Virus record (IMG/VR): IMGVR_UViG_3300023174_000045
Location: 124,001 to 188,000 of that record
Direction: 5' to 3' (one strand)
Origin: a virus
DNA: 64,000 nt
In this document: positions 38,548 to 38,953 of the stretch, piece by piece
Layout: every line of letters starts with the position of its first letter
How positions within the stretch are numbered: position 1 is the first letter of the stretch
Program-made: the position numbers and the translations under genes
Notes under the pieces: generated by a model
The model's database searches: none
What the model saw: only the letters and a program-made list of their open reading frames with translations
What the model was told of the DNA's origin: nothing

Positions 38548-38605
38548 GTATGAAGCCGAGAGAAAAGTGTTCTGGACGGGGGTGCGAATCCCCCCAGGTC
38601 CACCA
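38548..38605 (+). ncRNA. ssrA: two-piece tmRNA, acceptor piece
   Basis: The 3' part of a circularly permuted tmRNA comes first. T-arm GGGGG-TGCGAAT-CCCCC, then acceptor strand CAGGTCC (38595-38601), A, and encoded CCA (38603-38605). CAGGTCC pairs with GGGCCTG (38771-38777) of the coding piece (one G-U). The 5' boundary is approximate. Permuted tmRNAs are known in alphaproteobacteria, some betaproteobacteria and some cyanobacteria. Confidence 0.8.
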
Positions 38606-38617
38606 TAAAGAAATTTG

Positions 38618-38782
38618 ATGAAACCAAAAAAAGTAAAACAGTATTTTGTTATAGTAGACAAAGATGACACAGTAAAAAGAGTGTGTTGGGCACCTTTACT
38701 GTGGGATATTCCTAACCTGGGATATCGTTTTACAGGATTTGACGGTGGTATTCCAAAGTTTCTTTATGTCGGGCCTGCATAG
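38618..38782 (+). CDS. 54-residue ORF inside the tmRNA intervening segment
   Basis: Starts MKPKKVKQYFVIVDKDDTVK, ends PKFLYVGPA. It begins 13 bases after the CCA of the acceptor piece, and its TAG (38780-38782) lies inside the mature coding piece, so the ORF spans the whole segment normally excised from the precursor. Composition is protein-like (Trp, Cys, hydrophobic core). No clear RBS (AAGAAATTTG). Expression would compete with tmRNA maturation. Confidence 0.5.
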   Translation: MKPKKVKQYFVIVDKDDTVKRVCWAPLLWDIPNLGYRFTGFDGGIPKFLYVGPA

Positions 38783-38930
38783 TTTCGACAGGGCAACAAG
38801 TAACAGAGTGGACAGCACGGTAGGCGATGACCGTTAATCAAGCAAAAAACGTAAATGCAAACGACGAACAGTTCGCTTTGGCAGCCTAAACACTGCCTAG
38901 GGTAGGAAATACCTCGTAACAGAAACAACC
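38771..38930 (+). ncRNA. ssrA: two-piece tmRNA, coding piece, tag ANDEQFALAA
   Basis: Starts GGGCCTGCATAGTTTCGACAGGG, the conserved tmRNA 5' region with D-loop-like sequence. The resume codon GCA opens the tag reading frame (38857-38889): ANDEQFALAA then TAA. The 3' part has a GGTAGGAAATACC hairpin and ends just before a terminator. The tag resembles beta/gammaproteobacterial tags and has the protease-recognised ALAA end. tmRNA rescues stalled ribosomes. Confidence 0.88.
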
Positions 38931-38931
38931 C

Positions 38932-38953
38932 AAAAGGCCTTGACGGGCCTTTT
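38932..38953 (+). terminator. terminator after tmRNA
   Basis: AAAAGGCC (38932-38939) pairs with GGCCTTTT (38946-38953), loop TTGACG. Confidence 0.75.

Follow-up and report, generated by a model that had tools for sequence, protein, structure and literature searches.

The locus described here is most probably a phage ssrA gene of the permuted type whose intervening segment serves as a slot for protein-gene cargo; we place the probability of this reading at about 0.88. It lies in the window, the stretch of 64,000 nucleotides that we analyzed, which covers positions 124001-188000 of a 225,080-base IMG/VR virus record. The record encodes a phage DNA polymerase (phrog_262, 9e-201) and a DnaB-like helicase and gives a weak match for head closure; no terminase of its own was found with PF03237 or phrog_2. 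The features of the locus, in window coordinates, are:

38544-38605, plus strand: acceptor piece, with T-arm, CAGGTCC (38595-38601), A and CCA (38603-38605); from Rfam, ARAGORN and sequence
38606-38770, plus strand: intervening (internal transcribed) segment of 165 nt between CCA and GGGCCTG, the cargo slot
38606-38614, plus strand: 5' strand of the closing helix, TAAAGAAAT, with a weak Shine-Dalgarno-like AAAGA; pairs with 38758-38766
38618-38782, plus strand: cargo gene of 54 aa, MKPKKVKQYFVIVDKDDTVKRVCWAPLLWDIPNLGYRFTGFDGGIPKFLYVGPA, an open frame with ATG 12 nt after CCA and stop TAG at 38780-38782
38758-38766, plus strand: 3' strand of the closing helix, GTTTCTTTA, doubling as the last cargo codons; from pairing, covariation and fold
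38771-38930 (3' boundary approximate), plus strand: coding (mRNA-like) piece, with the GGGCCTG acceptor strand, GTTTCGACAGGGC, resume context and tag frame
38857-38889, plus strand: tag reading frame, ANDEQFALAA and stop; from ARAGORN
38931-38954, plus strand: intrinsic terminator, a 10-bp stem followed by a T-rich tail; from sequence

ARAGORN, run on the window, calls a permuted tmRNA with the tag ANDEQFALAA at 38510-38980. Two Rfam models match at full length and above their gathering scores: RF04321 (tmRNA_permuted) at 38544-38889 with 139.8 bits (gathering 47; model positions 1-213 of 213) and RF01850 (beta_tmRNA) at 38513-38957 with 133.8 bits (gathering 84). The complete permuted tmRNA spans 38544-38955. 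These calls bear out the original prediction of a phage-borne, circularly permuted two-piece tmRNA, which had itself named covariance models as a check. Its tag and its positions for the CCA end, the start of the coding piece and the terminator agree with the sequence and ARAGORN. The proposed pairing of CAGGTCC with GGGCCTG at 38771 extends over 7 of 7 pairs, a U.G included, and the stem retains a G3-U70-type pair. ARAGORN called no one-piece acceptor downstream, the finding that would have spoken against a permuted gene. The Rfam scan found no group I intron in the window tmRNA: the T-arm is uninterrupted and no intron family matches. The insert follows CCA and precedes the coding piece, away from the T-loop. 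ARAGORN coordinates for the '5' tRNA domain' are misplaced for permuted genes and were left out of the analysis. By these sequence criteria the tmRNA parts are intact in the window, and the segment 38606-38770 would be absent from the mature tmRNA.

Other parts of the original prediction need revision. It called a complete permuted tmRNA in a phage unusual, which was too strong: the accessible text of PMC9004378 (2022) reports that phage Melnitz has a two-piece tmRNA and that 53 of 133 distinct phage tmRNAs take this form, and IMG/VR holds at least 86 distinct permuted tmRNAs. Since that survey already covers two-piece forms, the phage permuted tmRNA itself is not new. The hint at a betaproteobacterial host survives as far as the fit of the beta-type model, which is no proof of the host, as the type of a phage tmRNA need not match its host (PMC9004378, accessible text). 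The open reading frame across the 165-nt spacer went unmentioned. That frame belongs to what appears to be new, small protein genes in the spacer of phage permuted tmRNAs; we found no earlier description of a protein gene in such a spacer in the freely readable literature.

In its order of acceptor, spacer and coding piece, its acceptor pairing, its tag frame and its model score, the window gene resembles the two-piece tmRNAs of RF04321, RF01849 (alpha) and RF01850 (beta). The spacer sets it apart. None of 30 bacterial permuted tmRNAs (Pseudomonadota) carries cargo, and their spacers have a median of 27 nt and a maximum of 115 nt, whereas the window spacer is 165 nt long and protein-coding. 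Melnitz, Mosig and other phages likewise carry permuted ssrA genes, but the accessible text of PMC9004378 describes no spacer protein gene for Melnitz or Mosig, and the Mosig spacer is short. The cultured phages X1, Rb1 and QDWS359 have gene-less spacers of 107-126 nt. In QDWS359 (L357), an antisense 'hypothetical protein', probably a mistaken annotation, overlies the permuted tmRNA at 893-1471.

The 2025 tmRNA database paper (PMC11915505; 97,179 sequences) terms the spacer IVS. In its accessible text, a tRNA-Ala gene and a repeat, one of each, are the contents mentioned for IVSs, and group I introns are the only place named for homing endonuclease genes. The tRNA-Ala case, in a nominally archaeal permuted tmRNA, also places a second gene inside, but it is an RNA gene and a single instance, whereas the phage slots hold protein genes of dozens of families. 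Group I intron tmRNAs, rarely with a LAGLIDADG homing endonuclease gene, likewise have a removable segment able to carry a protein gene. Those introns are self-splicing and lie in the T-loop, according to the same text, whereas the window-type slot has no intron, occupies another site and holds diverse, mostly non-homing cargo.

We searched IMG/VR with two patterns. Pattern 1 uses the T-arm and acceptor end only and yielded the 86 or more permuted tmRNAs mentioned above; in 18 of the 86 listed, an open frame of 20 aa or more runs across the slot from a start directly downstream of CCA, with a motif resembling a ribosome-binding site ahead of it. Pattern 2 requires T-arm, acceptor, AAGGA or AAAGA, and ATG after CCA, and leaves frame length unconstrained. 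Among its matches listed, 108 of 124 sites are permuted tmRNAs, which form 46 independent slot clusters. In 43 of these 46 clusters a frame spans the slot; shuffling of the slot interior predicts 3.5. Further cargo loci were added through alpha-type T-arms and a 3'-end pattern. Permuted genes were recognized by pattern and pairing, with an ARAGORN check, and with an Rfam check for ten loci. All frequencies hold for the patterns used, in a sample that leaves out cyanobacterial-type tmRNAs.

The collection contains at least 135 distinct cargo proteins, which fall into at least about 59 unrelated families, perhaps including a few spurious ones; comparison shows that the slot holds many unrelated protein genes in other phages. 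Cargo with recognizable domains includes a thioredoxin with WCGPC (L152, 4e-21), a 156-aa HNH/homing endonuclease in a 482-nt slot (L141, L187 and L216; phrog_655, 2e-14), a CxxCxxCC protein (L062, 1e-6), a GNAT acetyltransferase (L490, 2e-6), an Oxidored-like protein (L475, 2e-10) and, by a weak match, a zinc ribbon (L129). Many others are one-helix membrane-type peptides of 22-40 aa. PADLOC gave no convincing match to anti-defence cargo. Full tmRNA_permuted matches enclose the thioredoxin (L152, 136 bits), a 133-aa (L211), a 104-aa (L231), an 86-aa (L062) and the HNH (L141) cargo. One locus with a 122-aa cargo (L155) falls below the Rfam gathering score, though its acceptor and coding pieces are recognizable, and was given no weight.

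The cargo genes fit the slot closely. Their ATG comes 9-14 nt downstream of CCA, and a stop 1 nt ahead of the coding piece is frequent. In many families TTATGAT|GGG at the 3' end of the slot provides a TGA stop at -1. Most of the 46 clusters among the matches listed have their stop at -1 to -13, within the slot; in 11 of them, the window's included, it falls within the coding piece, 12-96 nt in. Every cargo family tested has pN/pS below 1, with averages of 0.16-0.72 where changes suffice. Two slots (L146 and L192) contain two tandem genes in one intervening segment. The Oxidored-like frame (PF09791) has no start codon in the slots of L475, L480, L488 and L495; the open frame reaches upstream to an ATG 56 nt ahead of the CCA end, so the protein may start within the acceptor piece of the tmRNA.

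Bacterial genes, assembly and chance were each considered as the source of the slot genes and rejected. None of the 30 bacterial permuted tmRNAs had cargo, and a terminase is present in several of the cargo-bearing records. Assembly error is not a general cause because the arrangement recurs across many independent metagenomes with different cargo. The shuffles dispose of chance frames.

The 54-aa protein of the window has 12 viral relatives (65-100% identity, indels only in-frame), and all 12 occupy the corresponding slot of a permuted tmRNA. We found no relatives in cultured phages or plasmids, no match in Pfam or PHROGs, and no second copy in the phage's own genome, where the sole match is the cargo gene itself. 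The window slot is 98.8% identical to those of L002 and L003, and 85.6-86.8% to those of L004 and L006-L008. Purifying selection, moderate at most, is only suggested, because pN/pS is 0.26-0.77 for pairs involving the window and above 1 within the young L006 group. The predicted structure is poor (pLDDT 58). The ribosome-binding site is weak, AAAGA instead of AAGGA, and a distant relative (L643) has none. Taken with its slot-bound relatives, the segment reads as protein-coding; that the product is a small host-directed protein is a guess.

The two ends of the slot pair with each other and extend the acceptor stem (in the window, TAAAGAAAT with GTTTCTTTA). The minimum free energy fold of the window locus has the 7-bp acceptor stem and a 13-bp helix (z -3.46). 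Across 36 cargo-bearing sequences, 94.8% of helix cells are paired, compared with at most 62.6% in slid registers. The covariation score for both helices is 0.353, compared with 0.140 when shuffled, and 0 of 500 shuffles reach it. The acceptor stem is fully paired with covariation, and its U.G is invariant, in 36 of 36 cargo carriers. In L643 the helix is retained in different letters (TAAATATA with TATATTTA), without AAGGA. Gene-less spacers also have the helix (407 of 480 cells paired vs 270 shuffled). In most cargo carriers its 5' strand is AAGGA, so this strand would double as ribosome-binding site; pairing and covariation thus describe a helix that closes the slot, with the ribosome-binding site on one strand and the last codons on the other. 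The fourth pair is G.U in place of G-C in 24 of 36 cargo carriers vs 10 of 60 gene-less spacers. This excess is a lead and no proof, because the set was partly collected by AAGGA.

Cargo and tmRNA have separate histories. Between the window and L003 the slot is 98.8% identical, the acceptor piece 93% and the coding piece 82%, with nothing shared further out. Between L007 and L004 the slot is 99.4% identical and each tmRNA piece 62%; identity starts at CAGGTCCACCA and stops at GGGCCTG. The L004 tmRNA is alpha-type (RF01849), and those of the window, L003 and L643 are beta-type (RF01850); the segment shared by L007 and L004 sits in a beta- and an alpha-type tmRNA, respectively. Conversely, the tmRNA parts of the window match those of L106 or L228 at 89-97%, and the slots are unrelated. 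Several of the cargo families are found beside T-arms of more than one type. These comparisons show that cargo passes from one type of tmRNA gene to another and takes acceptor-stem strands with it. Relatives of the thioredoxin at 87-89% identity are free-standing phage genes, whereas the L152-type and L562 copies occupy the slot, which points to capture. The slot at L008:1414-1620 lies between acceptor strands of two different tmRNAs, CACCTCC and GGGCCTG, and the stem has two C.C mismatches; it could be a fresh recombinant or a chimera.

We infer processing at the slot borders, control of translation and a function for the cargo. A single transcript would contain the acceptor piece, a small open reading frame and the coding piece. 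RNase P (5' of 38771) and 3'-end trimming (at 38605) would act on the acceptor stem and closing helix as their substrate; maturation of the tmRNA and translation of the cargo would thus depend on one RNA, and translation would compete with helix formation. The phage would gain a free site from which to express a small protein, and an alanine-tagging ribosome-rescue RNA that relies on host SmpB; host SmpB is proposed because the phage record yielded no SmpB gene. Whether phage permuted tmRNA genes in general are recombination-swappable expression sites for small proteins, with a hairpin-based competition between maturation and translation and with captured cassettes that hop between lineages, we consider an even bet.

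Three other readings of the locus were weighed. It could be an ordinary permuted tmRNA with a chance frame or structural filler in its spacer. The 54-aa protein has no known domain, and 68 of the 86 distinct viral permuted tmRNAs listed have short frameless spacers, as this would predict. We consider it very improbable given the 43 open clusters where shuffling expects 3.5, the known enzymes in the slot, the in-frame indels and the pN/pS values below 1. Alternatively, the tmRNA halves could be relics or processing punctuation, kept mainly for RNase P and 3'-processing signals that excise a small mRNA and not for ribosome rescue. Such a role would suit tmRNA halves that change while the cargo stays conserved, as well as the mismatched stem of L008. 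It sits poorly with the perfectly paired, covarying acceptor stem and invariant U.G of all 36 cargo carriers, with ALAA- or LAA-like tag ends and with persistently high Rfam scores, and we regard it as unlikely.

The third reading makes the locus a self-coupled rescue circuit, in which RNase P cleavage yields a stop-less cargo mRNA and the resulting stall recruits tmRNA from the same transcript. It is confined to families with the stop in the coding piece, such as the window's, where processing before translation would remove the stop. The 11 of 46 listed clusters with that arrangement speak for it, but the stop of most clusters lies inside the slot, so it cannot be the general purpose. A stop-less cargo mRNA that calls for tmRNA is speculation, and the other clusters do not need such a circuit; we rate this reading doubtful, on a par with relic halves. 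The cargo slot remains our preferred reading.

If the cargo-slot reading is correct, the permuted tmRNA spacer, usually treated as waste, codes for proteins of dozens of families. Slot genes are easily overlooked because they are located inside a tmRNA call. The slot may explain why phages retain the permuted form. Its proteins are a defined, readily cloned set of small phage proteins for testing, and the sharing of one transcript by tmRNA processing and translation becomes directly testable. The closing helix and swap points would make a clean case of cargo exchange within a non-coding RNA gene.

The tmRNA lies inside a tRNA array at window 36504-47726, with 34 ARAGORN calls covering all 20 amino acids; 32 of the 34 are confirmed by Rfam. 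ARAGORN calls a CTA-anticodon (suppressor/Pyl) tRNA at 40544-40622, without Rfam confirmation. TAG ends just 4 of 38 long ORFs. The natural C-terminus of the window cargo family is GPA; read-through of the TAG would append one residue and FRQGNK, resembling the natural C-terminus of L007, QFRQSKE. The phage genome also encodes three radical-SAM-like proteins (window 30768-32183 and L648:16362-19291).
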